Source: an uncultured Bacteroidales bacterium
GTDB taxonomy: Bacteria > Bacteroidota > Bacteroidia > Bacteroidales > Bacteroidaceae
DNA: 34,631 nt
Direction: 5' to 3'
NCBI GenBank assembly: GCA_902763865.1
Contig: CACWTR010000027.1
Coordinates: forward strand, 1 to 34,631
The notes under the pieces were generated by a model, which worked only from the letters and a program-made list of their open reading frames with translations, searched no databases and had not been told where the DNA came from. This document shows, piece by piece, positions 241-26,105 of this stretch; the stretch's first letter is position 1, and every line of letters begins with the position of its first letter. Both the position numbers and the translations under genes were made by a program.

Positions 241-330
241 GGATTAATGGGACCAATAGGACCAATAGGACTAATGGGACATATAGGCCCAATAGGTCTA
301 ATAGGACTGATAGGACCAATGAGGGCAATG
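241..330. repeat. 9-bp minisatellite, ten units
   Basis: Ten consecutive 9-bp units follow the pattern GGACCAATA with substitutions (GGACTAATG, GGACATATA, GGCCCAATA, GGTCTAATA and so on). Because 9 is divisible by 3, the plus strand reads as a collagen-like Gly-Pro-Ile repeat. The open frame around it has no family resemblance outside the repeat and runs through unrelated repeats on both sides, so it is annotated as a repeat and not a gene. Confidence 0.8.
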
Positions 331-349
331 GGTTGTCGTGACGGGTTCG

Positions 350-415
350 TTGCTTCATCGCGATGGAGTGATTGCTTCATCGCGATGAAGCAATTGCTTG
401 TTCACGATGAAGCAA
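350..415 (+). repeat. Triple-palindrome element, copy A
   Basis: Three adjacent 22-bp dyads occupy 350-371, 372-393 and 394-415. The middle one is a perfect palindrome made of half-site TTGCTTCATCG and its complement CGATGAAGCAA. The outer ones are imperfect: unit 1 ends in GGAGTGA, and unit 3 has TTGTTCA in its left half. Related elements lie at 18534-18599 and 26020-26085. The right flank TCAATACGAC is shared with copy B, and ACGACGTGGT is shared with the right side of copy C. The element lies between the 5S terminator and the promoter of the 547 gene. Confidence 0.85.
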
Positions 416-480
416 TCAATACGACGTGGTCTTGCTGCCTCCATTTTATTTGTTATTTGGAATAAATATGGGCTGTTCTG

Positions 481-511
481 TTGTTTTCTTGATTATTATG
501 TTGTATATTTG
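481..511 (+). promoter_or_regulatory. Bacteroidota-type promoter for the acyltransferase fusion gene
   Basis: TATATTTG at 504-511 fits the -7 consensus TAnnTTTG, and TTG at 481-483 lies 20 bp upstream as the -33 element. The start codon at 547 would give a leader of about 30 bases. Confidence 0.65.
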
Positions 512-546
512 CACTTCAATACGGTGAGTTAAGAAAGCAATTACGG

Positions 547-2589
547 ATGTTCTCAAAGTCAAATACTCAGGCGCTGAAGGGCTTTGCTGCTATCGGAATA
601 CTGGTCTTTCATGTTCTGCTGGCCTATAGCATTTCTCCTGTTTTCAATATGTGGGGGGGAGTCTTTGTTGCTTTGTTCTTGGTGCTGAGCGGCTATGGTA
701 TTGAGGAATCATACAGAAGTAAAGGGCTTGACGGCTTCTGGGAAAACCGCTTGAGGAAGGTTGTTCTTCCTACGGCGTTCTTTATCTGTGCCTACAACTT
801 TGTTTTCTCTTTCTTTCCTCTGACGGGAGATGCGTCTTCCGGGATGTCGATGCACAGGTGTCTCGATGAGTTGCTATACGTCAGGCCGACGTTCTGGTTT
901 GTGTTCTTCATCCTGAAGTGTTATGCTGTCTATTGGGTCGGAACGCGTTTTATGAATGAGCGTTTCCGGCTTCTGTTCTTTTTTGTCTGTGCGATTGTCA
1001 ACCTCAATCTGACGGCTCCTTGCGGTCATTTGGAGGCGGAACAGTCTTTCAGCTTCCTTGCCGGTGTGCTCATCTCCAGGAACAAGCAACGTCTGCTTTC
1101 GCTTTCGGACAGGGCTGTGAAGTGGTCAACTTTCGTGCTACTACTTGTGGGAGCGGCTTTGTTGCTGCTGAAGTCCGTCCCGCTGTTGCACTCCTTGAAG
1201 GGAAGCATTGCGTACAATTATTTGCTTTGTCCCTTCCGCCTGTCTGTCGGTCTGGCTTTCATTCCGCTGTTTTCAATGATGCGGGTAGAGGCGAGTTCGC
1301 TGCTGAGAAAGGCGGGGAAGTATAGCCTGGAGATATACATTGCGCACATCCCATTCATCGGATTGATTGCCGGGGTGAGAGGTCTGGTGGTCTTCTTGGC
1401 TTATTCCGCCATTTCCTTTGCCCTTCTTCTGGCTTACAGGAGCTTTGTCGAGAAGAGGGTTGGCATTGCGGAGTCTTTGTATGTCCTTGTCAATGTGCTT
1501 TTTGTAACGAAGTATTCTTCGCGAATATCCGAGTCTGTCGTGTTGTTTGCCTCGCTGTCGGCAGTTGCTATCTATTATGTCGTGATTCGTGTGGTTCTAC
1601 CTTATATATATAGTGAGCTTCGCTTGCCGGAGGCTTCATGGATGCGGAGGTTTGTCTGTAGCCTTTCCGTGTTGGCTTTTGCCGGCATGTTAGTCGCGCA
1701 GTATGCGGTTGACCCATACGAGCTTCAGGTTGACAGGTGGTCGGCTTTGCACTTCCCGATTCAGAATCTCCTGTCAGGCATCTATCCCTATACGGCCTCT
1801 ACACATTTGGGCGGATATGCATCGCCGTTCCCGGTGTGGCAGATACTTCACGTTCCCTTCTATCTCGTGGGTAACGTGGGGCTGTCTTTCTTTGCAGCTA
1901 CGGCGCTCTTCCTGTGGAGTTGCTGGAAGAGGCAAGGGCGGGAGAAGGCTGCCATCGTCTGTGTGCTGCTATGGTCTTCTGTTGCAGTATGGTACGAGGC
2001 GATGGTGAGGAGCGACCTCATCACAAACTTCTTGTTGCTGGCTGCAATTGTCAATGTCGTGTTCTACCGCATGAGCCAGCAATGGGTTGAGCAGCACCGG
2101 TGGGCGATTTCCTGTATTGTCGGTCTGTTGGCCTGCACGAGGGTGATAGTGCTTATACCTGTTGCCATATTGCTGCTGCCGTACTTTATCAGGATGAATT
2201 GGCGCCGTCAGATTGCGACGGCACTTCTGACGGTTGTGGTCTTCGGCCTCACTTTTGTGCCGTTTGCCGTGTGGGACTGGCAGGAGTTCTATTATTTCCG
2301 CCACAATCCCTGGGCCTTGCAGACGAGCCAAGGCAACGTCTCCGACTTCATCCTCTTTGTCCCGCTTACAGTCTTTCTGGCAATGAATTACAGGACAAAC
2401 GCTTTTCGGTACTACCGAAATTCGGCCTTGATGCTCGTGGTTTTCGTGTGCGCTACGTTCTGCCATAATATGTATCTGTACGGGAATTGGGACTTGTTTT
2501 CCCCGACATTCGACATTACCTATTTTTCGACGGCAATCCCGTTTTGTCTGCTTGCCATTGCGGAGAATTATCCAAAGAACAACAAATAG
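547..2589 (+). CDS. Acyltransferase-3 family protein fused to a GT-C-like membrane domain
   Basis: This is a 680-residue polytopic membrane protein in two parts. Residues about 1-320 look like an acyltransferase-3 (OafA/WecH-type) domain: the N-terminal helix reads LKGFAAIGILVFHVLLAY with its conserved His, followed by FLVLSGYGI and a cytoplasmic FWENRLRKVVLP segment, and the half ends near YSLEIYIAHIPF. Members of this family transfer acyl groups to surface sugars. Residues about 360-680 resemble GT-C/DUF2029-type glycosyltransferases: an extracytoplasmic loop with VDPYELQVDRWS, then IYPYTASTHLGGYASPFP and many further helices. I infer a protein that both glycosylates and acylates an exported glycan; substrate and donor are unknown. 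A canonical promoter lies upstream, and the gene is monocistronic because the next gene has its own promoter. Acyltransferase half fairly sure, GT-C half probable. Confidence 0.8.
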   Translation: MFSKSNTQALKGFAAIGILVFHVLLAYSISPVFNMWGGVFVALFLVLSGYGIEESYRSKGLDGFWENRLRKVVLPTAFFICAYNFVFSFFPLTGDASSGMSMHRCLDELLYVRPTFWFVFFILKCYAVYWVGTRFMNERFRLLFFFVCAIVNLNLTAPCGHLEAEQSFSFLAGVLISRNKQRLLSLSDRAVKWSTFVLLLVGAALLLLKSVPLLHSLKGSIAYNYLLCPFRLSVGLAFIPLFSMMRVEASSLLRKAGKYSLEIYIAHIPFIGLIAGVRGLVVFLAYSAISFALLLAYRSFVEKRVGIAESLYVLVNVLFVTKYSSRISESVVLFASLSAVAIYYVVIRVVLPYIYSELRLPEASWMRRFVCSLSVLAFAGMLVAQYAVDPYELQVDRWSALHFPIQNLLSGIYPYTASTHLGGYASPFPVWQILHVPFYLVGNVGLSFFAATALFLWSCWKRQGREKAAIVCVLLWSSVAVWYEAMVRSDLITNFLLLAAIVNVVFYRMSQQWVEQHRWAISCIVGLLACTRVIVLIPVAILLLPYFIRMNWRRQIATALLTVVVFGLTFVPFAVWDWQEFYYFRHNPWALQTSQGNVSDFILFVPLTVFLAMNYRTNAFRYYRNSALMLVVFVCATFCHNMYLYGNWDLFSPTFDITYFSTAIPFCLLAIAENYPKNNK

Positions 2590-2610
2590 ATGCATTAGGG
2601 CAATAAAATG

Positions 2611-2652
2611 TTTGCCTAATTCGTTATATTATCGTACCTTTGTACGATAATA
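2611..2652 (+). promoter_or_regulatory. Consensus promoter with an inverted repeat over the -7 box
   Basis: TTTG at 2611-2614 and TACCTTTG at 2635-2642, separated by 20 bp, match the Bacteroidota -33/-7 consensus exactly. The -7 box lies within a perfect inverted repeat with 11-bp arms (TATTATCGTAC at 2627-2637, GTACGATAATA at 2642-2652) around a 4-bp CTTT spacer. This looks like an operator that a dimeric regulator could occupy in competition with RNA polymerase. No T tract follows, so it is unlikely to be a terminator. Confidence 0.75.
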
Positions 2653-2661
2653 GACTTTTGA

Positions 2662-3525
2662 ATGATAACGGCCTCGATAGTAACATACAATAACAACCTC
2701 CTGGACTTGGAGGGAATCCTTCGCAGCCTGCTCATCTCGCCTGTTCAGGTTCTCTGGATTATAGACCATAGCGACGAGTTCACGCGCTTGGAGGGAGAGT
2801 TGCAGGAGTATAAGCGGAAGGATGATGTCTATCTGCAGCACGAGGGAAGGGGTTTCCGGCTGGAATACATCAAGCAAACGAACAAAGGCTATGGCGGAGG
2901 CCATAACGTGGCACTTCGCAAGGCGATAGAGATAGGAAGCCAGTATCACCTTGTGGTCAATCCGGATGTGTGGTTCGGTGCAGAGGTTATCCCGGCCCTG
3001 TGGCGACTGATGGAGGAAGATGAAAGCATCGCCCAGGTCATGCCCAAGGTCCTCTTCCTGAACGGCTCCGTCCAGCACCTGGCTAAGCTGCTGCCTACAC
3101 CTTTGGACTTGTTCAACCGCTTCTTTATGCCGGCGAAACTGATATCCAAAAGGAACGACAAGTTCGAGCTGAAGCATTCCGGCTACGACAAGGTGATGAA
3201 CGTGCCCTTCCTGTCCGGATGTTTCATGTTCTTCCGGATGAGCGCCTTGCAGAGCGAGGGACTCTTCGACGAGCGCTTCTTCATGTATATGGAGGACGTA
3301 GATATGACGCGCCGCCTGCATGTGAAGTACAAGACGCTGTTCTACCCGTCGGTGAGCATCTACCACCGGTTCAGCCGCCTGTCCTACCATAAGTGGCACC
3401 TGTCGTTTGTCCACATGATAAGCGTGATAAAATACTTCAACAAGTGGGGCTGGATATACGACGGCGCACGGAGGCGCTTCAACAAAACGCTATTGAAGGA
3501 ACTGAAAACGAATTGTGAGGAATGA
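2662..3525 (+). CDS. Family 2 glycosyltransferase (rhamnosyltransferase-like)
   Basis: This 287-residue protein is a cytoplasmic GT-A glycosyltransferase of family GT2, which moves a sugar from a nucleotide donor to a growing surface glycan. It begins directly with the first strand (ITASIVTYNN). GYGGGHNVAL near residues 74-83 and VVNPDVWF near 97-104 (a DxD-like region) match the WbbL/rhamnosyltransferase branch. LSGCFMFFRMSAL and FDERFFMYMEDVDMTRRL near 187-218 hold the acceptor-side ED motif. The C-terminal region is basic and probably associates with the membrane. It starts about ten bases after a promoter-overlapping inverted repeat, and its stop overlaps the next start by ATGA, so it is translationally coupled to the Wzi-type gene. 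The sugar transferred cannot be told from sequence. Confidence 0.88.
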   Translation: MITASIVTYNNNLLDLEGILRSLLISPVQVLWIIDHSDEFTRLEGELQEYKRKDDVYLQHEGRGFRLEYIKQTNKGYGGGHNVALRKAIEIGSQYHLVVNPDVWFGAEVIPALWRLMEEDESIAQVMPKVLFLNGSVQHLAKLLPTPLDLFNRFFMPAKLISKRNDKFELKHSGYDKVMNVPFLSGCFMFFRMSALQSEGLFDERFFMYMEDVDMTRRLHVKYKTLFYPSVSIYHRFSRLSYHKWHLSFVHMISVIKYFNKWGWIYDGARRRFNKTLLKELKTNCEE

Positions 3526-5033: not shown

Positions 5034-5058
5034 CACCTCTGGACAAAACTGACACGAC

Positions 5059-5499
5059 ATGAAAAGGATTATATACATACTGCTCATATCACTGATGACG
5101 ATGCTCGTCCCGACGAGTTGCAACAAGAGAGACATCAATGGCGACCTGGACGGGATGTGGCAGCTGACGGAGTGGAGGGACAAGGACAACAACGTCAAGG
5201 CAACGAAGGACGACATGATATTCTACAGCTTCCAGCTGAAGATGGCGAAGTTCCTCAAGCAGGCAGAAAGCGAGAACTTCTCTATGATGAATTCCATGCT
5301 TGAGTTCACTTCGGGGCAGATACGCATCTACGAGCCTGCCGTCTATGGCGGCGAAGGGCACGATGACATGAAGCAGATGTCCGAGCTTGCTGTCTTCGGA
5401 GTTCCCGAAGACGGTATCTTTCATGTCCAGCTGCTGACGGGCAGCGACATGCAGCTAAGGACGAACAGCCAGGACGTGCTCACCTTCAGGAAGTATTAA
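5059..5499 (+). CDS. Small lipocalin-like lipoprotein
   Basis: This 146-residue protein begins with a lipoprotein signal: hydrophobic residues about 5-18 followed by VPTSC, so Cys21 would be lipidated. The mature region opens with NGDLDGMWQLTEW, the strand-turn pattern of small lipocalin-like Bacteroidota lipoproteins, and ends LRTNSQDVLTFRKY as a closing beta strand. No enzyme motif is visible. It lies 25 bp after the Wzi-type gene and 21 bp before the WecA-type gene on the same strand, so it is probably co-transcribed with them. A role in binding or export of the polysaccharide is a guess from position only. It could equally be a generic periplasmic or outer-membrane lipoprotein. Confidence 0.75.
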   Translation: MKRIIYILLISLMTMLVPTSCNKRDINGDLDGMWQLTEWRDKDNNVKATKDDMIFYSFQLKMAKFLKQAESENFSMMNSMLEFTSGQIRIYEPAVYGGEGHDDMKQMSELAVFGVPEDGIFHVQLLTGSDMQLRTNSQDVLTFRKY

Positions 5500-5520
5500 C
5501 AGCAGCAAATCGACATATTT

Positions 5521-6600: not shown

Positions 6601-6607
6601 GGGAGAA

Positions 6608-8539: not shown

Positions 8540-8565
8540 TATATATATATATAGAGAGAGAGAGA
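8540..8565 (-). repeat. (TA)7(GA)6 dinucleotide tract abutting a start codon
   Basis: Plus-strand bases 8540-8553 are seven TA units and 8554-8565 are six GA units. On the coding (minus) strand this is (TC)6(TA)7 followed at once by ATG of the dehydratase. It occupies the place of the ribosome-binding region, so slippage could alter leader length and translation. Confidence 0.85.
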
Positions 8566-8583
8566 ATTAGCTTTTATTTTTTG

Positions 8584-8614
8584 CAAAGTTAACAACTTAT
8601 AACATTATATGCAA
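8584..8614 (-). promoter_or_regulatory. Promoter for the WbpM-like gene
   Basis: Read on the minus strand, TAACTTTG (8591-8584) is a consensus -7 box and TTG (8614-8612) lies 20 bp upstream as a -33 element. The leader to the start codon at 8539 would be roughly 35-40 bases and contains the dinucleotide tract. The promoter separates the dehydratase gene from prs, so the two need not be one transcript. Confidence 0.65.
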
Positions 8615-8667
8615 GGAAAATGTTAGAAAAAAAACATGAATTGTCTTTATTTGTTCAAAAGAACACG

Positions 8668-8887
8668 TTCTTATTGCCAACGGCTCACGTTCTTATTGCC
8701 ATCGACTCACGACCTTATTGCCAACGACTCACGATCTTATTGCCAACGACTCGCGTTCTTATTGCCAACGACTCACGATCTTATTGCCAACGACTCGCGT
8801 CCTTATTGCCAACGACTCACGTCCTTATTGCCAACGACTCACGATCTTATTGCAATCGGCTCACGTCCTTATTGCCAATGCGACACG
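8668..8887. repeat. 22-bp tandem repeat array, ten units
   Basis: Ten head-to-tail units of exactly 22 bp fill 8668-8887. Each is two variable bases (TT, TT, AC, AT, TT, AT, TC, TC, AT, TC in order) followed by a near-constant 20-bp core, CTTATTGCCAACGACTCACG. The few core changes are mostly in the first two and last two units. There are no spacers, so it is not a CRISPR. Because 22 is not a multiple of 3, all three plus frames stay open, which produces spurious open frames. It lies between the stop of prs (8922) and the promoter of the dehydratase gene; the rest of 8540-8921 shows nothing else. Confidence 0.92.
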
Positions 8888-8921
8888 ATGTCTTTTCGCG
8901 GGGGGAGTTTGGCCCGCCCGC

Positions 8922-9860
8922 TCAGATGAGGTATTGCTTGGAGATACTCTCGTTGTTTTCAACGCATTGTATGGTGTGTGCCAGTAGCGCAGCAATGGAG
9001 AGTTGCTTGACCTTCTTGCAGCTCATGTCGTAGGGGATGCTGTCGGTGAAGACCATTTCCTCGATGCACGATGCCTCGACGCGCTCTTTTGCGGGGCCGC
9101 TCATGAGTCCGTGGCTGGCTATGGCTCGCACGCTCCGTGCTCCGTTCTGCTTCATCAGGTCGGCAGCCTTGGTGATAGTGCCGGCTGTATCGACAATGTC
9201 GTCGATGAGGATGACGTTGGCATCGGTCACGTCGCCGATGATTTCCATGCTGGCTACCTCGTTGGCCTTCTTGCGTGTCTTGTTGCAGAGGACGAGGGGG
9301 CAGTTCAGGTACTTGCTGTAGGCGCTTGCACGCTTCGAACCGCCCACGTCGGGTGTGGCGATGACGAGGTTGTCCAGCTTCAGACTCTGTATGTAGGGCA
9401 GTATGACGCTGGAGGCGTAGAGGTGGTCAACGGGCACGTTGAAGAATCCCTGCTCCTGGTCGGCATGCAGGTCCATGGTGATGAGGCGTGTGATGCCGGC
9501 CACTCCGAACATGTCGGCCACGAGTTTTGCGGCGATGCTGACGCGGGGCTTGCTCTTGCGGTCCTGACGGGCCCATCCGAAGTAGGGGACAACGGCGTTG
9601 ATGGTGCGTGCCGAAGCACGTTTCGCTGCGTCTATCATGAGGAGCAGCTCCATGAGGTTGTCGGTGTTGGGGAATGTGCTCTGCACGAGGAAGACATCCA
9701 CGCCGCGGATGGACTCCTCGAAGCAGACTTCAAACTCGCCGTCGGAGAATTTAGTGATGGAGAGGTTGCCCAGCTCGCAACCCAACTGCTGGCAGATTTT
9801 CTCTGCCAGATAACGTGACTTGGTGCCCGAGAACACCTTGAATGACCTTTCGCAATTCAT
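8922..9860 (-). CDS. prs: Ribose-phosphate pyrophosphokinase
   Basis: This 312-residue cytoplasmic enzyme makes PRPP from ribose-5-phosphate and ATP, feeding purine, pyrimidine, NAD, histidine and tryptophan synthesis. KFSDGE, YFGWARQDRK and LHADQEQGFF are the family's nucleotide and metal-binding segments, and VILIDDIVDTAGTI is the PRPP-binding loop with the acidic pair. The frame can be extended upstream to a TTG at 9896, but that would overlap the thiE-like gene. The ATG at 9860 gives the usual family length and starts just before the conserved FKVFSGT strand, so it is preferred. It follows the thiE-like gene by 28 bp on the same strand and is probably co-transcribed from that gene's promoter. 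Confidence 0.96.
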   Translation of the reverse strand: MNCERSFKVFSGTKSRYLAEKICQQLGCELGNLSITKFSDGEFEVCFEESIRGVDVFLVQSTFPNTDNLMELLLMIDAAKRASARTINAVVPYFGWARQDRKSKPRVSIAAKLVADMFGVAGITRLITMDLHADQEQGFFNVPVDHLYASSVILPYIQSLKLDNLVIATPDVGGSKRASAYSKYLNCPLVLCNKTRKKANEVASMEIIGDVTDANVILIDDIVDTAGTITKAADLMKQNGARSVRAIASHGLMSGPAKERVEASCIEEMVFTDSIPYDMSCKKVKQLSIAALLAHTIQCVENNESISKQYLI

Positions 9861-9888
9861 AGTCTCTATAGTTCGTTGATTGTTCTTT

Positions 9889-10497
9889 CTATCCAACGGC
9901 TTTCCTCAGCCTGCGGAAGTGGGCGATGAGCTCCTTGTAGTCCTTCCCCGAGTGTACGTCGAAGCGGTTCCAGAGGTCGCCGCGTATGGCAACGCCTCCG
10001 AAGCCCCACTGCCGCACCTGCTCGATGTTCTCCAGCGAGACGCCTCCCTCGGCAATGACGCGGTGGTCGATGATGCCCTGGCGTGCGGCGGAGAGCAGCT
10101 CGTCGGGGGTGAAGGATGCTTTGTTCTCGCTTTCCGAGATGCTGTCGAAGATGTTGCGCAGCAGGACGTACTCGCTCAGCGGCTTCTGCTCCACGATGCC
10201 CTGCAGGTCGTAGCAGGTCCTGGTGACGGGGCCCTTGTAGGATGCCGGTGCCTCGGGATGGCGCTTGCTGAGGTGGATGCCCAGCAGCCCGAACTCGTCG
10301 CAAAGGTAGAAGTGGTCGTGCACGACGATTTTCCTGCGGTACTGCTCGGGCATGAGGCTGAGCAGACGCTCGCAGAAGACGGGCTCTGAGTTCGGTTTGC
10401 GCAGGTGGAGAATGTCCAGTCCTTCCTCGAAGAGTGTGGTTAGAATCTTGTCTTCTTCAATGAAGAACTCGGGGCTGGTGAGCAGAATAAGTTTCAT
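9889..10497 (-). CDS. Thiamine-phosphate synthase family protein (ThiE/TenI-like)
   Basis: This 202-residue TIM-barrel protein of the ThiE/TenI family has the family's order of strands: MKLILLTSP, LDILHLRKP (near 28-36), KIVVHDHFYLCDEFGLLGIHLS (near 55-76), RTCYDL, and RVIAEGGVSLENI with FGGVAIRGDLW near the C terminus, the last two forming the phosphate-binding loops. ThiE joins HMP-PP and HET-P to make thiamine phosphate. The usual V-N-D-R segment is here VVHDHF, and no other thiamine genes lie in the window, so it may be the TenI-like paralogue common in Bacteroidota and not the main synthase. Its promoter lies at 10527-10534, and prs follows it. Confidence 0.75.
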   Translation of the reverse strand: MKLILLTSPEFFIEEDKILTTLFEEGLDILHLRKPNSEPVFCERLLSLMPEQYRRKIVVHDHFYLCDEFGLLGIHLSKRHPEAPASYKGPVTRTCYDLQGIVEQKPLSEYVLLRNIFDSISESENKASFTPDELLSAARQGIIDHRVIAEGGVSLENIEQVRQWGFGGVAIRGDLWNRFDVHSGKDYKELIAHFRRLRKAVG

Positions 10498-10526
10498 TCC
10501 GATACGCTGTGTCGTTTTTCCGGGTG

Positions 10527-10534
10527 CAAAGGTA
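10527..10534 (-). promoter_or_regulatory. -7 box for the thiE-like/prs transcript
   Basis: Minus-strand TACCTTTG (10534-10527) matches the Bacteroidota -7 consensus, 30 bases before the thiE-like start codon at 10497. The AT-rich sequence about 20 bp further upstream has no clear TTTG. Confidence 0.6.
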
Positions 10535-10542
10535 CGATATTT

Positions 10543-10574
10543 AATTCATAAATCATAATTCATAAATCATAATT
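10543..10574. repeat. 14-bp direct repeat between divergent promoters
   Basis: AATTCATAAATCAT occurs twice back to back (10543-10556, 10557-10570) and is followed by a third AATT. It fills the space between the -7 boxes of the divergent thiE-like (minus) and GH43 (plus) genes and would overlap both upstream promoter regions. It may be only an AT-rich spacer repeat. Confidence 0.7.
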
Positions 10575-10596
10575 TTCTTTTTTGTTCAAAAGTTCG

Positions 10597-10604
10597 TAAC
10601 TTTG
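10597..10604 (+). promoter_or_regulatory. -7 box for the GH43-type gene
   Basis: TAACTTTG at 10597-10604 matches the -7 consensus, 41 bases before the start codon at 10645. A TTTG at 10581-10584 is too close (12 bp) to be a normal -33 element, so that partner is unclear. Confidence 0.6.
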
Positions 10605-10644
10605 CAAACAGAACGAGAACGTATTAAGCTTAATATAATAAGGT

Positions 10645-13713: not shown

Positions 13714-13727
13714 TAAGGTAACGAACC

Positions 13728-14582: not shown

Positions 14583-14629
14583 GGCCCCCAGAGTCTCTTC
14601 AGAGGGAATGCGGAACAGCGTAAAATGAA

Positions 14630-17600: not shown

Positions 17601-18520
17601 CCGAGCTGCAGGTGCCCTACTTCAGCGGACGTGTGGCCGAGCCGCCATCCTGCACAGCGCTCACCGAGAACTACCGCAGGGAGAACATCGTCTTTGCTTC
17701 CTCGCATGCTCACAACGTCTCGGGCAAGTCGAACCAGACGATGCAGATGCTCTATATATATAAATATGGTATAGAGCTGCCCGAGGGCGTGACCGAAGTC
17801 AGCCTCTCCGCCTCGGACCGCAAGACCTTCCTCTTTGCTGCCACCGTCGCTTCCAATCAGGCGGACGACATCGCGCCCTTTGCACCGCTCACTACTGAGG
17901 TGGAGACCCAACAGCCCTCCTTGGGGGGAGAAGGGTCGGAGGCCGATGACCGCCTGGTGCCAAAAAGCGTCACGGCCTCGCACCAGAACGGCACCGGCGA
18001 ATCTGCGGCCAAGGCTAACGACCAGGATGCAACGACCAAGTGGTGTGCCACGAGTTCGCAGAGCCGCACCCCCTACCTGCAATATGTCCTGAAGGACACC
18101 GCCATCATAGACCGCTGGATGGTGCTCGGGGCTGCACGCGAGAGCGGCAGCTACGTGGCCCGCGCCTTCAAGCTGCAGTATCAGGCAGCGGACGGCACAT
18201 GGGTGGATGCCGATGTGGTCCAGGACAACCAGGTGAACAAGGTGGTGCGCACGTTGCAGCAGCCCATAACCGCCACACGTGTCCGCCTACAGATGATTCA
18301 GGGCGAGCAGGAAGGCTACACGACCCGCATCTACGAGTTCGCCGTCTATGGCTACCTGAAGGGCGACGACCCGTCGGGTCTGGCTCCGGTATTTGACTCG
18401 GCAGAAGAGGACGAAGGGGCCTGGTTCGACCTTGCAGGGCGCAGGACAAAGACAAAGCCTCAAGGCATCGGCATCAGGAAAGGAAGAAAAGAACTGAACC
18501 GCAAAAGCAGGCAGACATGA
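14630..18520 (+). CDS. Secreted GH38 alpha-mannosidase with F5/8-like domain and sorting tail
   Basis: This 1296-residue exported enzyme has a signal peptide after a short basic start (membrane segment about 22-36). An alternative ATG at 14645 would shorten it by five residues. Residues about 43-330 are the GH38 catalytic domain: THLDTQWNWD gives zinc ligands His51 and Asp53, MLPDCFGFS the nucleophile Asp165, and QQHHDGITGTS the His386/His387 zinc region. The middle domains match the mannosidase mid and C-terminal beta modules (about 340-870). Residues about 1108-1250 resemble an F5/8 type C (discoidin) carbohydrate-binding domain. The end, WFDLAGRRTKTKPQGIGIRKGRK, is sorting-tail-like. Two GC-rich dispersed repeats sit in frame at linkers (877-890, 1094-1106). 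It likely removes alpha-mannose from host or yeast glycans. Confidence 0.9.
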   Translation: MNDIKMRSAIKRLPAITLPKGGWAVSLLLLCTSVFCRAEDEKTLFLISNTHLDTQWNWDVQTTISQYVKNTLSDNLSLMAKYPDFRLNYEGAIKYMWMKEYYPAEFEKMKQYVRNGQWHVSGMSVDANDVMMSSAESILHSMLYANRFYRDELGVRGGYDVMLPDCFGFSYALPSLMRHAGQKGFHTAKLGWGSAAYDKLPHFGVWQGVDGSKVYAVYKPGAYDSHEEFNKDLTNDSEILGKLSTNISESGIPVAFRYVGPRGDRGGALQDNPGKDGENTPYWLSYNAGKQDGSIKVRLATPDEFFQYMEDHDKGQYKLWNTELPMRAHGVGAYTSWGALKLWNRKNELLADAAEKVSSLAMWLGLREYPSRQLRDAWVRTIWQQHHDGITGTSILPANDYSYNEYYLANRAFAQELSTSVGAIIQQMDTDTEGVPIAVFNPLSHERTDIVEGSVYVGRFVNTVRVIGPDGNEVLSQVLRYDNATGLLHFIFAATVPSLGYAVYDARVGEKPTLASDLSIEDSNNQKRISNGRYRVAVNSNGDIASLFGIENNRTFINSAVRLQLIYDHEDTWPAWEISYTDICRTPSSYVSGDAEIELVEDGPLRKSLRVTRRKEGSTFVQYIRMNAVNDRVECVNEVDWQTSERMLKVSFPFAFSNASDTYDISLGTIKRGVRTKDEYEVCGHQWADHSAMSGRYGVSVLNDCKYGWDKPSATSLRLTLLRTPSCGAYSHQANMDLGPNKFTYALLPHEGGWSERTQMQAGELNQPLIAFVASRHHGGILPRKSCFASLSTDKVVIKVLKKAEDTDELIVRVYEWAGEDQEDVRLSFPVPVISAREVNGIEESLTGGQCSVVDSSVVFSIGHYQPRTFALRLQQPFPSPQREAGGEAVSLSYNIDLMSYDSSRGNATSSYIYAYPAELIPDTLRADDTDFVMGPRANGEKNVLRLSTAQTIPIPSWVGESKDRYKLYLLMASPSEAGAKVTATAGDEQTELQVPYFSGRVAEPPSCTALTENYRRENIVFASSHAHNVSGKSNQTMQMLYIYKYGIELPEGVTEVSLSASDRKTFLFAATVASNQADDIAPFAPLTTEVETQQPSLGGEGSEADDRLVPKSVTASHQNGTGESAAKANDQDATTKWCATSSQSRTPYLQYVLKDTAIIDRWMVLGAARESGSYVARAFKLQYQAADGTWVDADVVQDNQVNKVVRTLQQPITATRVRLQMIQGEQEGYTTRIYEFAVYGYLKGDDPSGLAPVFDSAEEDEGAWFDLAGRRTKTKPQGIGIRKGRKELNRKSRQT
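17262..17297 (+). repeat. GC-rich dispersed repeat, copy 2 (in frame inside the mannosidase)
   Basis: This segment encodes P-S-P-Q-R-E-A-G-G-E-A (about residues 879-889) between the end of the mannosidase beta modules (RTFALRLQQ) and the next domain (LSYNIDLMSYD). It matches intergenic copy 1 at 205-240 in both DNA pattern and reading frame. The Pro/Gly-rich peptide looks like an added linker. Confidence 0.6.
17915..17945 (+). repeat. GC-rich dispersed repeat, copy 3 (in frame inside the mannosidase)
   Basis: This segment encodes P-S-L-G-G-E-G-S-E-A (about residues 1096-1105), immediately before the F5/8-like domain. The DNA, CCCTCC then a run of G, GAAGGG and GGAGGCC, is a weaker match to copies 1 and 2. 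Like copy 2 it falls at a domain boundary and keeps the frame. Confidence 0.5.
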
Positions 18521-18533
18521 CACGACGAGTTCA

Positions 18534-18599
18534 TTGCTTCATCGCCATGAAGTGATTGCTTCATCGCGATGAAGCAATTGCTCCATCGCGATGGAGCAA
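18534..18599 (+). repeat. Triple-palindrome element, copy B
   Basis: Three consecutive 22-bp dyads lie at 18534-18555, 18556-18577 and 18578-18599. The middle unit is identical to that of copy A. Unit 3 (half-site TTGCTCCATCG with complement CGATGGAGCAA) is also a perfect palindrome, with matched changes in both arms relative to unit 2. The right flank TCAATACGAC is identical to copy A. The element starts 14 bp after the mannosidase stop and lies upstream of the SIMPL gene; no clear TAnnTTTG promoter was seen between it and that gene. Confidence 0.87.
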
Positions 18600-18675
18600 T
18601 CAATACGACACGATACACTGACGAATTTCAACTTACATAACTAACCAAATCAAACAACCAAACAACAAAAATACT

Positions 18676-19398: not shown

Positions 19399-19418
19399 AG
19401 CAGCTCCGGCGCGTAGCC

Positions 19419-21256: not shown

Positions 21257-21326
21257 TGTTATAACGATAGAAGAGCCTGCAAAATTGTGTAAGACGTAGG
21301 ATTTTTATGCCTCGCAGTGCACGGCA

Positions 21327-23249
21327 CTACCAGTTGCCGGGACGTCCGCCACCGCCGGGGCCGTGGCCGCCGCCGGAAGAGTAGTTGGACAGGCTCACGG
21401 ACGAACCGCCGTTTGCTCCGCTGTAGCCGTTGCCGCTCCAGAAACTCGTTCCGCTGCCCGTCACGTTTGACTTCAGAGCAGGACTGCTTGTGGTATAGAC
21501 CGCCATCGAAGTGCCCATTGAGCTGTTCGACGGAACCTTGAAGGCAAAAGCCAGTGCCGAGCCGTTGTAGAGGCCGTACCAGCTGCCTTTGCTGTAGCTG
21601 GCAGACTTTGCCGTACCGCCGGAGATGCTGGCCCCCCTCTCGAATCCGCCTATCGCCACAACGTTGCCTCCGGAGATGTACAGCTTGTAACCTCCCTCGG
21701 TGTTGGCATCGAGTCCCACTTCTGGCTGCCTGGCTGCAACGGCAAAGACGTTTCCTCCCGTTATGGTCAAATTGCCGTTGGCGTCTATTCCGTCGTTGCC
21801 CGACGAGTTGGCCATGATGTATCCGCCGCTGATGGTCATGTGACTGCTCGAGTTGATGGCATCGTCGCTCGAGTAGGCATAGACGTAACCTCCGCTGATG
21901 TTCAGCGTGCTCTTGCACTCTATGCCCTCGTGGTACGTGGCGCTCACGTTCACGGTGCCGCCGCTGATGGTCATCGTCCCGTCGGCCTTGATGCCCTTGG
22001 GCGATGTCTTCAGCGCATCGTTGAGCCGCTCGGTGGTGGAGGAAGAGGTGGTTGTCCGGATGGTGGTATTGCTGGTGCTGGAGCAGTAAGCTATCTGTCC
22101 GCTGCTCGTGACGCTGACGTTTGCCTCGCCGCTGATGGTCATCGTCCCGTCGGTCTTCATGCCTTTGCCGCCTGCACCGCTGTTGGCGAGTGTCATCGTG
22201 CCGCCGCTAATGGTCATGTTGCCGTCGCTGCTGACGCATGTGCTGCCTTTCACCTCGCTGTCGTCGCTGTCCCATGCTGCACTTCCCGTGCACCGGACGG
22301 AGATGTCGCCGCCGCTGACGCTGACGTCGCCATTGGCCTTGATGCCCTTCGTAGCAGCCGCTGAGGTGGAGATGCTGAGTGTGCCGCCCTCGATATAGAT
22401 GTTGCCGCTGTCCTCATCCTCGTGGTCGGTGGTCTGGCCTGTGGATGTCTCACCGCCCAGGTCGCATTGCAAGCCGTCGTCGCCTATGCCGCTCAGGGTC
22501 ACGGTTCCGCTCTCCATCAGCAGGTATTCCTCGCAGCTGATGCCGTCGCCCACGGTGGAGGTGATATTGAGCGTCAGGTTCTTGATGCTGACGTAGGATG
22601 CACTCTTGATGCCGTGCTTCGTCTTGCCGGCCACGGTCAGCGAGCCGTTGCCTTGCAGTTGCAGCTGTCCCTTCGAGTAGATACATGCTTTCTGCGAGCC
22701 GTCGGCACCATCGGTGAGCGTGTTCTCCGTGCCTTTCTTGGCCGAGAGCTGTATGCGCTTCTTGTTGTTGATGTTGATGGCCGCGCCGCCGGGATTGGTC
22801 AGTGTGAGGCCGTTCAGTGCAATGGTGCACTTGTACGTGCCGTCGAGCGTCAGCGAGCCGTCGGTGCTCGTTCCGCTCAGCTGATAAGTGATCTCGTCGC
22901 CATCCACGGCATCGGTGTTGAGCTGTTCAATCGCGACGTGTGCTCCGCTGACGGTTGCGTTGACGTACTGTGCTGCGTTGCCGGCCACGGTGACGCTTGC
23001 TTCCGTGCCGCTGTAGGCAACGGAGACGAGATTGTCTGTAACCGAAGTGTCGTCTGTATATATACGTGTGACGTCGCTCAGCTCGAAGGTCTTGCCCATG
23101 ACGGTAAGGGAGGAGCCTCCCTGGAAGTTCATCTCTCCCGTCTGTGTGGCAGGGAACTGATAGGTCACACTTCCGATGCTGACGTTCAGTGTCTGTGCCT
23201 CTGCTGCCATCCCGGTCAGCAGGGCGGCTATGGTTAACAGGTTCTTCAT
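21327..23249 (-). CDS. Secreted Cthe_2159-like carbohydrate-binding beta-helix protein
   Basis: This 640-residue protein has a signal peptide (1-18, ending AEA). Residues about 20-75 resemble the small N-terminal strand repeat of Bacteroidota secreted proteins (QFPATQTGEMNF, FELSDVTRIYTDD). From about 140 onward it is a right-handed beta-helix with short repeats such as GGDISV, GGTMTL, GIKADGTMTISGGTVNVSAT and GIDANGNLTITGG, spaced about 22-30 residues. This pattern fits the Cthe_2159/DUF4353 family, whose founding member binds cellulose and pectin-like acidic polymers through calcium-rich helix turns. The C-terminal tail is Gly-rich and ends GGGGRPGNW. Its start overlaps the stop of the 131-residue gene upstream (ATGA), and the kinase gene follows. 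Function as an adhesin or polysaccharide-binding surface fibre is inferred. Confidence 0.82.
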   Translation of the reverse strand: MKNLLTIAALLTGMAAEAQTLNVSIGSVTYQFPATQTGEMNFQGGSSLTVMGKTFELSDVTRIYTDDTSVTDNLVSVAYSGTEASVTVAGNAAQYVNATVSGAHVAIEQLNTDAVDGDEITYQLSGTSTDGSLTLDGTYKCTIALNGLTLTNPGGAAININNKKRIQLSAKKGTENTLTDGADGSQKACIYSKGQLQLQGNGSLTVAGKTKHGIKSASYVSIKNLTLNITSTVGDGISCEEYLLMESGTVTLSGIGDDGLQCDLGGETSTGQTTDHEDEDSGNIYIEGGTLSISTSAAATKGIKANGDVSVSGGDISVRCTGSAAWDSDDSEVKGSTCVSSDGNMTISGGTMTLANSGAGGKGMKTDGTMTISGEANVSVTSSGQIAYCSSTSNTTIRTTTSSSTTERLNDALKTSPKGIKADGTMTISGGTVNVSATYHEGIECKSTLNISGGYVYAYSSDDAINSSSHMTISGGYIMANSSGNDGIDANGNLTITGGNVFAVAARQPEVGLDANTEGGYKLYISGGNVVAIGGFERGASISGGTAKSASYSKGSWYGLYNGSALAFAFKVPSNSSMGTSMAVYTTSSPALKSNVTGSGTSFWSGNGYSGANGGSSVSLSNYSSGGGHGPGGGGRPGNW

Positions 23250-23641
23250 TTCCTTATTTGCACTTTAATTGTCATTCCATTTGTCTTTATGATGTATGTG
23301 CCTTGAGGCAGCTTCCTGCCCTGAGGCATCTGCCGACCGCTCAGGTCGTAGATGGCTGTCGCTTCCGTCGGCTCCAGACTGTCGAGGTCTATGCTCGAGA
23401 TGCCGGTGGGGTCGTCGTCGGTGAACTCCATCTTCGCGAGGGATGCAACATTGAGTTCGAGGGTGTTCGTCCCGTTTGTCACCGTCAGGATGCCGTCTGC
23501 GAAGGTCATGTTCAGGTCTGTGGAAGTGATGCCTTGGACGGTTCCGTCGCTTAGGGTGAAGAGCAGGCAGCTGTAGTCTGCAGCTCTCATGCCGGTGGAA
23601 AGTGTGGCAAGGAGGCATAGGATATATAGCTTGCGTTTCAT
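23246..23641 (-). CDS. Small secreted protein with a type IX-like sorting tail
   Basis: This 131-residue protein starts at the ATG at 23641. The frame extends further upstream, but the residues before this point do not look like coding sequence, and MKRKLYILCLLATLSTGMRA is a good signal peptide. The mature protein has one short beta module: YSCLLFTLSDGTVQGI, LNMTFADGILTVTNG and LNVASLAKMEF. An acidic linker leads to ATAIYDLSGRQM and LPQGTYIIKTNGMTIKVQIRK, which is a sorting-tail pattern. The same strand module occurs at the N terminus of the next gene's product. The stop overlaps that gene's start by ATGA, so the two are translationally coupled. It could be a partner or processed half of the beta-helix protein; no enzyme activity is indicated. 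Confidence 0.72.
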   Translation of the reverse strand: MKRKLYILCLLATLSTGMRAADYSCLLFTLSDGTVQGITSTDLNMTFADGILTVTNGTNTLELNVASLAKMEFTDDDPTGISSIDLDSLEPTEATAIYDLSGRQMPQGRKLPQGTYIIKTNGMTIKVQIRK

Positions 23642-23716
23642 GATGATTGGGTTTAGATGTGTTGAACAAATAGTCATTATATATTATGTAATGTGTGGCA
23701 ACGGGCTGTCTGCTGT

Positions 23717-25471
23717 TCACCATCTGCCGCCGGGTCCGCCTCCTCCGCCCATGCCGCCGGTGCTGCCGGAATAGGACGAGAGGGATACCGACGAGCCGCC
23801 GCTGAAGGTGCTGCCGCTGACGGCCAGTCCCCCGAAGCGCGATGTGCCGCCGCTGACGCTGATGCCCGACTTGAGGCTTGGCGTGGAGGCTGCCGAAACC
23901 ACCAGGCCGTTGCCGCCGCTGGACGGCGACCTGAAGCAGAAGCTCTCGCTGCCGTAGCTCAGGGCGTACCAGGTGTTGGTGCTCCAGGAAGCCTGATAAC
24001 ATGTCTGGCTGAGGCTGCTGCCCTGTTCCAGTCCGCCAACGGCGACGACGGTGCCGCCCTGGACGTAGAGCTTGTAGCCTCTTTCGGTGTTGGCATCGAG
24101 CGCCACTTCCGCTCCGCCGCTGCAGATGGCATAGACGGTTCCGCCCTTGATGTACAGGTTCCCGTTTGCATCAATGCCGTCGTTGTTCCGCCCTTGGGCG
24201 AAGACGAATCCGCCGGAGATGGTCAGATGGCTCTTTGCGTTGATGGCATCGTCGTAGGCGTATGAAGCCACTTCGCCGCCGCTGATGTCGAGCGTGCTCT
24301 TGCTCTCGATGCCTTCGCCGTTAGTGCCGCTGGTGCGCACCCAGACGAGTCCGTCGGTGACGCTGACAGCGCCGTCGGCCTTGATGCCCTTGGGCGATGC
24401 GGTGTCGTTGTTGCTCCTGTACTGCCCGCCCTCGGTGACGATGTACGTGCAGCCCCCGTTGAAGCAGCATTCAGTATCTGAGCTGATGCCCTTTCCGCCC
24501 GCACCGGTGCTCTTGAGCCACAGCTCTCCTCCGTTCATGGTGAACGTCTCGTCGGCCTTGATGCCGGCTGCCCCCTTGGCCTCGTTCTCGTCAGTGTCGT
24601 AGGCACCGCCTCCGCTGGTGACGACTGTGGTGCGTCCGCCGTTCACCACGATGACGCTCTCGCAGTTGATGCCTTTTGCCGCAGCTGCTGATACCTCTAC
24701 GTTCAGGATGCCGCCGTTGATGTAGATGCCGTCGTTGGCCTTGATGCCGTGGTTGGCCCTGGACTGGGCATAGACGTTGTTGCCTTTGCGGAAGACGATG
24801 TAGTCAGCCGAGTGGATGCCGTTGTTGTAGTTGCCCGTCACGCTGAGCGAACCGCTGCCGTTGAAGAGCAGTTTCCCCTTGCAGTAGAGTGCGCCCTTGT
24901 GGTCGTTAAGCGAACTGCTCCCGTCGGCCAGCGTGTTGGTGGTGCCGTCGGCCAACATGACGTAGGCACGCTTGGAACAAAGCAGGTTGAGGGCTGCCGA
25001 GTCGGGATTGGTGATGCTGACCCCGTTCAGCAGGACCTCGTACTTCTTGTCACCCGCCACCGTGAAGGAGCCGTTGGCAGTGGAGCCGCTCAGGACGTAG
25101 CAGATGCCCTTCGTGGAACCGTGATTAGCCGTGACGTGTCCGCCGTTGACCGTTATCTCCACGCCGTCTGCCGTCTTTGCCTCGGGATTGGAGAGGTCGA
25201 TGCTGATTTCCGTTGTGAAGGAATTGTTCTCCAGCGGGTCCTCGTCGGCATCGGGGAACTGTTCGCTGACCGTCGCCTCAGGTTCCGCAGTCGTCCTGTC
25301 GATATCGACGGAGAAGGAACTCAGTCCGCCCGCAGCCTGCGAGGTGCTGCCGGACCCGGAACTGCCCGAAGCGGATGAGGCGTCGCTGCCTGTCACGTCT
25401 TCCGTCGAGCAGGCCGTAGCAGTCATCAATGTGGCAAGGAGCAGGATGAATGTCATTTCTTGGAGTTTCAT
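23717..25471 (-). CDS. Cthe_2159-like carbohydrate-binding beta-helix lipoprotein
   Basis: The preferred start is the ATG at 25471, giving 584 residues with a lipoprotein signal (hydrophobic segment then TATAC, lipidated Cys21). The frame continues 16 codons further upstream without signal-like sequence. A Ser/Gly-rich spacer (about 22-60) and an acidic stretch precede a beta-helix (about 90-540) with repeats GIKANDGIYINGGILNVEV, GIKADETFTMNGGELWL, GIESKSTLDISGGEV and GIDANGNLYIKGGTVY. It is a clear paralogue of the 640-residue protein but is anchored by lipid instead of being secreted. The tail is again Gly-rich and ends GGGGGPGGRW. It heads the five-gene minus-strand locus, with a -7 box at 25517-25524 lying next to the terminator of the gene before it. 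It probably displays a polymer-binding fibre on the cell surface. Confidence 0.83.
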   Translation of the reverse strand: MKLQEMTFILLLATLMTATACSTEDVTGSDASSASGSSGSGSTSQAAGGLSSFSVDIDRTTAEPEATVSEQFPDADEDPLENNSFTTEISIDLSNPEAKTADGVEITVNGGHVTANHGSTKGICYVLSGSTANGSFTVAGDKKYEVLLNGVSITNPDSAALNLLCSKRAYVMLADGTTNTLADGSSSLNDHKGALYCKGKLLFNGSGSLSVTGNYNNGIHSADYIVFRKGNNVYAQSRANHGIKANDGIYINGGILNVEVSAAAAKGINCESVIVVNGGRTTVVTSGGGAYDTDENEAKGAAGIKADETFTMNGGELWLKSTGAGGKGISSDTECCFNGGCTYIVTEGGQYRSNNDTASPKGIKADGAVSVTDGLVWVRTSGTNGEGIESKSTLDISGGEVASYAYDDAINAKSHLTISGGFVFAQGRNNDGIDANGNLYIKGGTVYAICSGGAEVALDANTERGYKLYVQGGTVVAVGGLEQGSSLSQTCYQASWSTNTWYALSYGSESFCFRSPSSGGNGLVVSAASTPSLKSGISVSGGTSRFGGLAVSGSTFSGGSSVSLSSYSGSTGGMGGGGGPGGRW

Positions 25472-25516
25472 GATAGTCTTCTGTTTAGTTGTCGTAATTA
25501 TATCTGTTTCCTGCTG

Positions 25517-25548
25517 CAAAGGTATAAAGAAAAGGCCGGTCCGCGAAA
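25517..25548 (-). promoter_or_regulatory. Promoter of the Cthe_2159-like / LytTR locus
   Basis: Minus-strand TACCTTTG (25524-25517) fits the -7 consensus. TTTC (25548-25545) lies 20 bp upstream in place of TTTG, inside the loop of the preceding terminator hairpin. The leader to the 25471 start would be about 40 bases. Confidence 0.6.
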
Positions 25549-25570
25549 TTTATTCAACGAACCGGCCTTT
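25531..25570 (-). terminator. Hairpin terminator after the TSCPD gene
   Basis: AAAGGCCGGT (25531-25540) and ACCGGCCTTT (25561-25570) are perfect complementary arms around a 20-base loop. On the minus strand the hairpin ends in CCTTTTCTTT. It follows the stop of the TSCPD gene (25588) and lies directly upstream of, and partly within, the next gene's promoter. Confidence 0.75.
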
Positions 25571-25587
25571 TTGTTCAGTGAACAGAC

Positions 25588-25845
25588 CTAAGCCTGTGCC
25601 TGCAACTGCTCCAGTGCCCTGCAAAGCTGGTCGGGACACGAGGTACGCTTCGTGCCGCACCGGATGCCGTTCAGACGCTGTATGACGTCGCCAACCTTCT
25701 GTCCTGTCACCAGGCGGCTGATGCCTTGCAGGTTGCCGTTGCACCCGCCCACAAAGAATACTTGCTGGATGATGTCGTTGTCATCTACTGTCACGTCGAT
25801 TACCTGCGAGCAGGTCCCTTCTGTTTGATACTGAATGTGTTTCAT
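25588..25845 (-). CDS. TSCPD domain protein (TIGR03905-like)
   Basis: This 85-residue protein starts at the ATG at 25845. The frame continues upstream through repeats, but MKHIQYQTEGTCSQ is the typical start of this family. It matches small TSCPD proteins, which resemble the C-terminal domain of class II ribonucleotide reductases: TCSQVIDV, VFFVGGCNGNLQGISRLVTG and the signature GIRCGTKRTSCPDQLCRAL near the end. The paired cysteines (in VGGCNG, IRCG, TSCPDQLC) suggest metal or redox chemistry. The exact role is not established for the stand-alone form. It has its own consensus promoter at 25916-25947 and a strong hairpin terminator after it. Confidence 0.85.
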   Translation of the reverse strand: MKHIQYQTEGTCSQVIDVTVDDNDIIQQVFFVGGCNGNLQGISRLVTGQKVGDVIQRLNGIRCGTKRTSCPDQLCRALEQLQAQA

Positions 25846-25915
25846 TGTTCTGTTGTTGTTTTCTGTAAAAGTTCCGCAGCCGGGTAGGTCATCCCCGCCT
25901 TGCCTCATTGCAGCG

Positions 25916-25947
25916 CAAAGGTAGGAAGAAAATACGCAACAGCCAAA
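25916..25947 (-). promoter_or_regulatory. Promoter of the TSCPD gene
   Basis: Minus-strand TTTG (25947-25944) and TACCTTTG (25923-25916) are separated by exactly 20 bp, a full consensus match. The leader to the start codon at 25845 is about 65 bases, with no obvious structure. Confidence 0.72.
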
Positions 25948-26019
25948 CAAATAAGCAGAAAACATGCCGAAAGAGCACAAAAGTCGCATCCATCCCGACG
26001 ATGCAACACGTTGACTCGA

Positions 26020-26085
26020 TTGCTTCATCGCGAACAAGCAATTGCATCTACATGTATGTGCAATCACTCCATCGCGATGAAGCAA
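26020..26085 (-). repeat. Triple-palindrome element, copy C (inverted)
   Basis: Read on the minus strand the order of units equals copy A: the first (26085-26064) is identical to copy A unit 1, and the third (26041-26020) differs from copy A unit 3 by one base. The middle unit (26042-26063) has a quite different sequence, TTGCACATACA then TGTAGATGCAA, yet keeps most of its dyad symmetry. The plus-strand right flank still carries ACGACGTGGT and GCCTCC as copy A does, so the core appears flipped relative to its flank. It lies between the divergent promoters of the TSCPD and PASTA genes. Confidence 0.83.
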
Positions 26086-26105
26086 CGAAGACGACGTGGT
26101 GACGT

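Follow-up and report, generated by a model that had tools for sequence, protein, structure and literature searches.

Intergenic palindrome arrays phased at two helical turns in an uncultured Bacteroidales bacterium and its relatives

Three places in one stretch of DNA from an uncultured Bacteroidales bacterium (family Bacteroidaceae) each hold three 22-bp palindromes set head to tail, which raises the question of what such triples are and what keeps their spacing so regular. The window, by which we mean the whole 34,631-nucleotide stretch analysed, contains the following features, including an array of a second family.

328..349, no strand assigned: degenerate outer dyad of 22 bp on the left of copy A, with the in-phase motif YSAA..CRWCGYGWYG
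350..415, plus strand: copy A, inner block of three 22-bp dyads (unit types E, M, T)
416..437, no strand assigned: degenerate outer dyad of 22 bp on the right of copy A, with the in-phase flank motif
8655..8896, no strand assigned: second-family array (CCAACGACTCACGWYCTTATTG) with 11 WCRYGW centres in phase, each exactly 22 bp from the next
18512..18533, no strand assigned: copy B, left outer dyad with the in-phase flank motif
18534..18599, plus strand: copy B, inner block of three 22-bp dyads, the third perfect with both arms changed
18600..18621, no strand assigned: copy B, right outer dyad with the in-phase flank motif
25998..26019, no strand assigned: copy C, outer dyad on the plus-strand left with the in-phase flank motif
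26020..26085, minus strand: copy C, inverted inner block whose middle unit is of X type (TTGCACATACATGTAGATGCAA)
26086..26107, no strand assigned: copy C, outer dyad on the plus-strand right with the in-phase flank motif

The coordinates and unit sequences of the three blocks, first described in a sequence-only reading of the window, were verified, as were its observations that unit 3 of copy B stays a perfect dyad with both arms altered, that the middle unit of copy C is aberrant, that copies A and B share the right flank TCAATACGAC, and that copy C has its units in reverse order relative to A and B. Pure triples of the aberrant X-type unit occur elsewhere in the source genome and in G166, another species of the same genus. 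The proposal that the core of copy C had flipped in place did not survive, because the ACGACGTGGT that A and C have in common matches the degenerate flank motif of the family and is thus no evidence of a flip at one site; orientation also varies freely over 54 copies. Tandem Repeats Finder (TRF) assigned period 22 to copies A and B, and copy C is absent from its list.

The three copies belong to a family (M) of at least 54 elements in the source genome, so that the triple layout extends well past the window: 46 of the 54 have exactly three units, and every unit of all 54 keeps the 22-bp phase, with no length changes seen. The consensus 22-mer has 135 sites genome-wide at three or fewer mismatches, compared with none for a reversed control; a single 22-mer with five mismatches (L082:7460) was excluded from the element list. 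As the sequence-only reading had anticipated from three copies, the elements are dispersed, lie in either orientation and are nearly all intergenic, two overlapping a predicted gene end. They sit mostly after the stop of the upstream gene or between divergent genes, with promoter room left. Among 48 classified elements the gene pair is divergent in 21 and convergent in 5; the site is close to the upstream gene's stop in 17 of 20 tandem cases, and 10 elements run with transcription and 9 against it. The unit haplotype E-M-T recurs, and M/X hybrids are also present. No exact match to the family was found in viral contigs, and blastn gave none among plasmids or phages.

The spacing reaches beyond this family. 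A scan of sampled stretches over periods of 15-40 bp found runs of at least three palindromic units at periods 21 and 22 alone, and shuffled controls at the seven periods tried gave zero. Such triples at period 21/22 number 11/5 in the source genome (three of the five being the window's own copies), 1/1 in G134 with a little of G148, and 0/2 in the same genus, with none in the sampled other genera. Arrays found by TRF, regardless of palindromy, peak at the same place, with 13 at period 22 (25 at period 21) in the source genome, 34 (8) in the same genus and 15 (15) in other genera of the family, whereas any other period from 16 to 30 gave at most eight. In overlap-free loci, where the coding fraction is 63-83%, the arrays that lie between genes are 44 of 45 at period 22 and 37 of 46 at period 21. 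Consensus units with at least seven pairs in their best rotation make up 23/35 in the source genome, 15/37 in the genus and 13/27 in other genera, compared with 8% of random 22-mers; beyond the source genome, the clearly palindromic share of the 21-22-bp arrays sampled is no more than half. No 22-bp array was found in small samples of other bacterial families, and G009, sampled over 100 kb, has neither a 21- nor a 22-bp array. In the literature searched, which takes in a minority of subscription journals, we found no account of 21-22-bp phased palindrome arrays in this bacterial family.

The letters of the unit, by contrast with its spacing, vary by species and by array family. The M sequence is nearly absent from the relatives searched: among four whose LysS is 91-94% identical, three lack the unit at up to three mismatches and G304 carries a two-unit variant. 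At lysS, where an allele lacking the element was sought, the neighbourhood is rearranged. In G134 the units sit inside a longer dispersed repeat, and by eye the flanks align in six of seven copies. One pair of arrays, in G008, demonstrates constraint on stems and spacing, sharing 56 of 56 stem bases and the same a-b-a-a order while only 17 of 32 linker bases agree and the flanks differ. The second-family array in the window lies 25 bp past the stop of the ribose-phosphate pyrophosphokinase gene (prs; 8922-9896, minus strand), and in the intergene downstream of prs the source genome, G304 and G310/G320 carry 22-bp arrays that differ from one another. Copy number in the second family at period 22 ranges up to about 10, and some of its arrays in the source genome are embedded in a larger repeat with inverted ends.

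The outer dyads of the M elements have little in common beyond their in-phase motif, in which the C at position 10 is present in 107 of 107 flanks counted; past about 36 bp, no position carries more than 0.25 bits of information over the 66 bp of flank examined. A pre-existing target composed of two outer dyads was considered and rejected, since in 400 kb no isolated double-outer site reached the score attained by 90% of the filled ones (their 10th percentile), and all 17 double-outer places found there fall inside longer second-family arrays. Thus the outer motif looks maintained. A cloverleaf, in which the left flank would pair at long range with the right one, was likewise rejected: the two flanks match at 9.88 of 22 positions compared with 11.27 in shuffled partners (z -5; 51 of 54 elements), a deficit that shared polarity does not explain (direct identity z -0.3). 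With regard to the terminal inverted repeats of MITEs, the outermost half-units of most M elements are inverted copies of each other, and it is the next 22 bp that are less complementary than shuffled partners. Mirror units of the A family (18 arrays) also avoid pairing (U2:U3, p<0.001; U1:U4, p ~0.03).

The suggestion that symmetry rather than bases is preserved, through paired changes in the two arms, finds little support inside the source genome, where 11 paired changes stand against 221 one-sided ones, counts that do not represent independent events because the M copies share descent. Selection for symmetry by this route is accordingly not supported within the genome. Between species, both arms have changed in G134 (TTGTTTC/GAAACAA) and in G304 (TTGCTGC/GCAGCAA). 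In X-family triples, units 1 and 3 are perfectly complementary in four of five cases and mismatches lie within units, a pattern closer to one long hairpin than to three local dyads. Six arrays folded as single strands do so far better than their shuffles (z -5.6 to -11.3).

Interspersed palindromes are known from many bacteria, and the triples resemble REP, BIME and REPIN elements with their RAYT transposases in being short, intergenic, high in copy, species-specific and present in both orientations. They differ in their contiguous two-turn phase, in having several unrelated sequences with one geometry, and in having neither a GTAG-type foot (by eye) nor an adjoining RAYT. A genome-wide protein-family search, confined to Y1_Tnp in a genome 84% complete, found two such genes; one of them, C4, has a different, GGGC-type repeat on either side, and no M triple lies in the 7-kb and 10-kb stretches around the two. 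A second-family array lies about 180 bp past the end of the C4 gene, outside that gene's own repeats. On these grounds the proposed mobilisation of the triples by a RAYT is not supported. The available part of PMC6006769 gives a GT[AG]G foot beside the stem as a REP/RAYT feature; none was seen by eye at the unit borders, which are mostly GCAA/TTGC and GTGA/TTGC, with TTCG, TTGA / TCAA, CGAA at the outside. Membership of the triples in the REP/RAYT system therefore fails on transposase adjacency and on the foot.

The BrickBuilt MITE of Porphyromonas gingivalis, as far as the consulted portion of PMC4596501 describes it, is another dispersed, intergenic, species-restricted set of short tandem units in a Bacteroidetes host without a transposase of its own. 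It has 23-nt direct repeats in up to 22.8 copies, along with a leader and a tail bearing IS5-type terminal repeats, whereas here the units are 21-22-bp dyads, mostly three or four in the M and A families, the phase is 22 bp in 54 of 54 M elements, and no leader or tail was seen within their 66-bp flanks. CGTC-tagged REPs (PMC3733652) are also palindromic, lack a dedicated transposase and count Bacteroidetes among their hosts; they bear a CGTC end tag, mostly a CCA tail, and occur singly or as dimers, and the accessible text of that source does not describe tandem 22-bp phasing. M-type units abut without spacers and so lack the repeat-spacer layout of CRISPR arrays with their unique spacers.

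Iterons and multi-operator arrays place protein sites about two turns apart, which favours cooperative binding. Iterons are confined to a few replication or partition loci; the arrays here occupy many intergenic sites and undergo sequence turnover. Repeated dyads at whole helical turns (periods 21 and 22 in the stretches scanned) are what an array of protein dimers would present, and the confinement of palindromic triples to these periods, where array periods also peak, supports multi-dimer protein sites, suggested earlier, as one candidate function. A spacing that is typically 21 or 22 bp, despite letters that vary by species, suggests docking arrays in which spacing outweighs sequence. We put at just short of an even chance the reading that the triples are a species-specific family within a class of intergenic, sequence-specific dyad arrays on which proteins dock two turns apart. 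The working form would probably be double-stranded DNA, with one candidate protein dimer docked per dyad, dimers on the same DNA face binding cooperatively, and degenerate outer dyads extending the array. Placement after stops or between divergent genes, with promoter room left, would fit a role in the nucleoid, or as an insulator or boundary, better than the regulation of individual genes. The arrays may multiply and be replaced in each species by copying, either transposition-like or by gene conversion. Such copying would account for inner blocks that are nearly identical at unrelated sites yet almost missing from relatives. Several observations count against docking: a regulator's site would be expected to be conserved in close relatives, yet three of four lack the M unit; part of the 21-22-bp arrays are not clearly palindromic; and to these are added the pairing in X triples, the strong folding of six arrays and G009 with its lack of arrays.

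Alternatively, the triples may be selfish, non-autonomous mobile repeats, MITE- or REPIN-like, with their enzyme encoded elsewhere and two-turn spacing serving the transposition complex alone, an explanation we regard as doubtful while giving it real weight. Fifty-four similar inner blocks with mostly unrelated flanks, both orientations, species specificity and intergenic placement all speak for it, as do sites near upstream stops, where insertion would do least harm, the shared E-M-T haplotypes and M/X hybrids, the longer repeat in G134 and the larger repeat with inverted ends around some second-family arrays. It is opposed by the lack of a transposase linked to the triples around the two Y1_Tnp genes, by the absence, over 400 kb, of any isolated double-outer empty site that passed the score threshold, and by the in-phase flank motif and the G008 arrays, whose linkers but not stems diverged, two features that simple recent copying would not produce. 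Strong folding in all six arrays tried, both-arm changes between species and the X triples would favour selection of the palindromes as RNA or single-stranded DNA hairpins, whether terminator-like, mRNA-stabilising or replication-related. We consider this improbable, because in both the M and the A family complementarity between mirror-image flanks or units is avoided, one-sided changes prevail within the genome, and RNA needs no helical period. The RNA hairpin triplets proposed earlier gain no support from orientation, which is random with respect to transcription, or from the few convergent and many divergent sites, although palindromes act on both strands and random orientation is not decisive. 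Least credible, and in our estimate very unlikely, is a functionless by-product of minisatellite slippage and gene conversion on palindromes, purged from genes. The tandem layout, intergenic bias, unit exchange and range of second-family copy numbers agree with it, but slippage would neither select 21-22 bp in many unrelated sequences nor fix unit number at three or four in the M and A families, and the length changes it predicts are not seen in M elements.

The docking reading can be widened to the whole bacterial family as a geometric rather than a sequence code, a step that we think somewhat unlikely. Small sets of dyads, often three or four, would lie two turns apart for a fast-evolving candidate protein set, their letters being replaced together in each species while the geometry and some positions persist; by extrapolation from samples, roughly 100 or more intergenic sites in each genome would carry such sets. 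That the period is locked at two helical turns in species and sequences without relation to one another points to a common physical rule. If this is true, the arrays would be a candidate genome-wide architectural element for this bacterial family and a natural example of many sites changing sequence in concert, with a bearing on the co-evolution of DNA-binding proteins and their sites.

The genome holding the window (G000; 2.91 Mb in 75 contigs, about 84% complete) has 135 sites within three mismatches of the consensus TTGCTTCATCGCGATGAAGCAA, while the reversed control has none. From it we assembled at least 54 elements of the M family, leaving out one lone 22-mer with five mismatches; for the 51 lying beyond the window, neighbouring sequence was retrieved as well. 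These include the three sites of triple 22-bp dyads that the sequence-only reading had reported in the window, and which are borne out as described:

Copy A, 350-415: triple of 22-bp dyads
Copy B, 18534-18599: triple of 22-bp dyads
Copy C, 26020-26085: triple of 22-bp dyads, inverted

The raw tally was 45 elements with three units, 8 with four and 1 with a single unit; because the last unit of one four-unit element (locus L097) is of the outer type described below, we adopted 46, 7 and 1. Within every element all units abut in 22-bp phase. Once oriented, an element mostly begins with unit E, whose right half is usually CGATGGAGTGA, has M or X as its central unit and often closes with T, whose left half is TTGCTTGTTCG. 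Both genomic orientations occur, and three elements have no assignable orientation. Among the 45 three-unit elements without N, 44 of 135 units are perfect and the order M-M-M is never found. Relative to the M unit, 53 elements (26 X-type units excluded) carry 221 one-sided and 11 paired changes, counts that shared descent inflates. On the oriented strand, 129 of the one-sided changes are G-T compatible.

A degenerate 22-bp dyad flanks the inner block on each side, with the in-phase motif YSAA..CRWCGYGWYG. Its position 10 is C (G on the other side) in every one of the 107 flanks counted. One unit further out, a weak signal reappears. Within an outer dyad, the halves match each other no better than shuffled ones do. 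Copy A lies downstream of 5S rRNA, and its left flank resembles that of a triple at a second contig start (L093:1-188 against window 229-437); left flank and inner block agree, the likeness ends with the inner block, and the right outer dyads differ.

We scanned for three consecutive units of the same period (15-40), each at least 72% self-complementary, and the stretches scanned gave matches only at 21 and 22. G000 (435 kb) had 11 at 21 and 5 at 22, the latter including copies A, B and C; G134, taken together with 20 kb of G148 (334 kb), had one at each; the remaining species of the genus (274 kb) had none at 21 and two at 22; and there were none in other genera (161 kb) or in shuffles at seven periods. 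The 21-bp matches in G000 form a separate A family, ATTTTCA-N5-TGAAAAT, in which 18 of 21 clusters have exactly four units. It is the commonest palindrome array in the G000 sample (L125-L144, e.g. L125:16024), and its outer motif is centred about as far out as that of M triples. Pure X triples are present in G000 and G166.

Tandem Repeats Finder tallies of sampled stretches, over periods 16-30, gave 25 arrays at 21 and 13 at 22 in G000 (next highest, 8); 34 at 22 in the same genus (next highest, 8), at least one counted twice in two overlapping loci; and 15 at each in other genera of the family (next highest, 5). Small samples of other families of the class (216 kb) and other classes (83 kb) had none at 22, and two and three, respectively, at 21. 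Consensus units with at least seven pairs in their best rotation make up 23 of 35 in G000, 15 of 37 in the same genus and 13 of 27 in other genera, against 8% of random 22-mers, so that many, yet not all, of these arrays are clearly palindromic. In non-overlapping loci, 44 of 45 period-22 and 37 of 46 period-21 arrays are intergenic, where coding fractions are 63-83%. One relative, G009, had no 21- or 22-bp array in 100 kb.

Symmetry over longer range differs among the families. Across 51 of the 54 M elements, the outer dyads on the two sides of an element complement each other less than shuffled partners do (9.88/22 versus 11.27/22; z -5), and their direct identity is as expected. The A family shows no reduced complementarity between flanks (17 arrays), and its mirror units avoid pairing. 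The M and A pattern fits avoidance of long perfect palindromes with local dyads retained; units 1 and 3 of X triples are perfect reverse complements in four of five cases, which contradicts such avoidance.

Gene context was taken from our own simple gene caller on draft genomes. Two of the 54 M elements overlap a predicted gene end and four have a neighbouring gene called on just one side; the other 48 sites split into tandem (22), divergent (21) and convergent (5), against 58, 21 and 10 among gaps of at least 150 bp in 400 kb of G000. Divergent sites may thus be somewhat favoured, although this is not a strong test. Excluding two tandem cases with gaps above 1 kb, the upstream stop is nearer than the downstream start in 17 of 20 (medians 55 versus 163 bp). 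In tandem cases, orientation agrees with transcription in 10 and opposes it in 9. A set of 20 neighbouring proteins, drawn from 13 loci, gave a named family for 9 at the limit used, tig and lysS among these, and for the other 11 no named family. Gene order at the lysS element (L074:3979-4044) and at copy B differs from that in relatives, most of whose 24 loci have, by eye, lysS followed by gpsA; GH38 and SIMPL lie on separate contigs in G304 and G307. Elsewhere in the window, 21327-25519 holds two adjoining Cthe_2159-type carbohydrate-binding-domain proteins, with strong repeats within each and between the two.

The likeness of inner blocks at unrelated sites requires some copying route; none was found. 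Mobilisation by a RAYT transposase, offered earlier as a possible role, is not supported for the triples. Set against the literature on known repeat systems (PMC4596501, PMC3733652, PMC5771137, PMC6006769, PMC3119063), M triples lack the transposase adjacency of REP/RAYT systems, none lying in the 7-kb and 10-kb stretches around the two Y1_Tnp genes found, and, as judged by eye, the foot (PMC6006769). Nor do M elements match the unit length and ends given there for BrickBuilt, the Porphyromonas gingivalis MITE (PMC4596501).

A second family of 22-bp arrays has WCRYGW centres, as at window 8655-8896. Runs of at least three such centres at fixed spacing number 17 at spacing 22 in the G000 sample and window (15 places, of which two count twice, in different frames), and at most three at every other period from 14 to 33. 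Some of these arrays lie inside a larger dispersed element, MITE-like by eye (six loci aligned within L110-L116, about 2680-3340), with TATTGCACACTT ... AAGTGTGCAA and, in L110, TGACAAAATG ... CATTTTGTCA further out. Another, of about eight units, lies some 180 bp beyond a Y1 transposase gene (L016:1402-1857, contig C4), which has GGGC-rich palindromes on both sides and is likely a REPtron with its own repeats. On contig C18, the 396-aa product of L017:724-1914 matches Y1_Tnp weakly and has a long C-terminal part; in the 400-500 bases to either side of the gene no repeat was noticed.

Between species the letters turn over. A search of 301 family genomes for the M 22-mer, allowing up to two mismatches, found it in the window's genome, G134, G090 and G212: G134 has seven M-like copies with both arms changed, and G090 and G212 have one each, outside arrays. 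Among named genome contigs, a set that may omit records close to the window's genome, only G134 (Bacteroidaceae bacterium RGIG6335, sheep rectum) gave an exact match to the M or G134 form. By eye, six of the seven G134 copies are embedded in a longer common repeat; this dispersed repeat (L099-L105) is roughly 200 bp, with conserved flanks. The close relative G304 has a two-unit array of an M variant, both arms changed, and the nine other members of the genus covered by that search lack the unit at up to three mismatches. Window 10516-10614 has five dispersed matches in G304 (81-93% over 56-99 bp).

At the few sites compared (prs, GH38 and an RluD-type gene), the sequence after prs comprises 11 in-phase 22-bp units of the CCAACGACTCACG family in G000, a CAGTACCACCG array at 22 bp in G304 and a GGTTAACC array at 22 bp in G310 and, by eye, G320. 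After GH38, G000 has copy B, G310 and G320 have a different 22-bp array, and G304 and G307 have none in view. The last 700 bp upstream of the RluD-type gene adjoining copy C show no such array in relatives; in G304 one lies further off. Two G008 arrays, whose flanks differ, match in all the 14-bp stems of four units and in the order of these stems, one of the two stem types departing from the other on both arms. Their linkers coincide at 17 of 32 bases.

The letters of the arrays change, as do the linkers in the case examined (G008), and what the arrays have in common is a spacing of two helical turns, often with one dyad per unit. The simplest common cause would be double-stranded DNA with dimers docked on one face.
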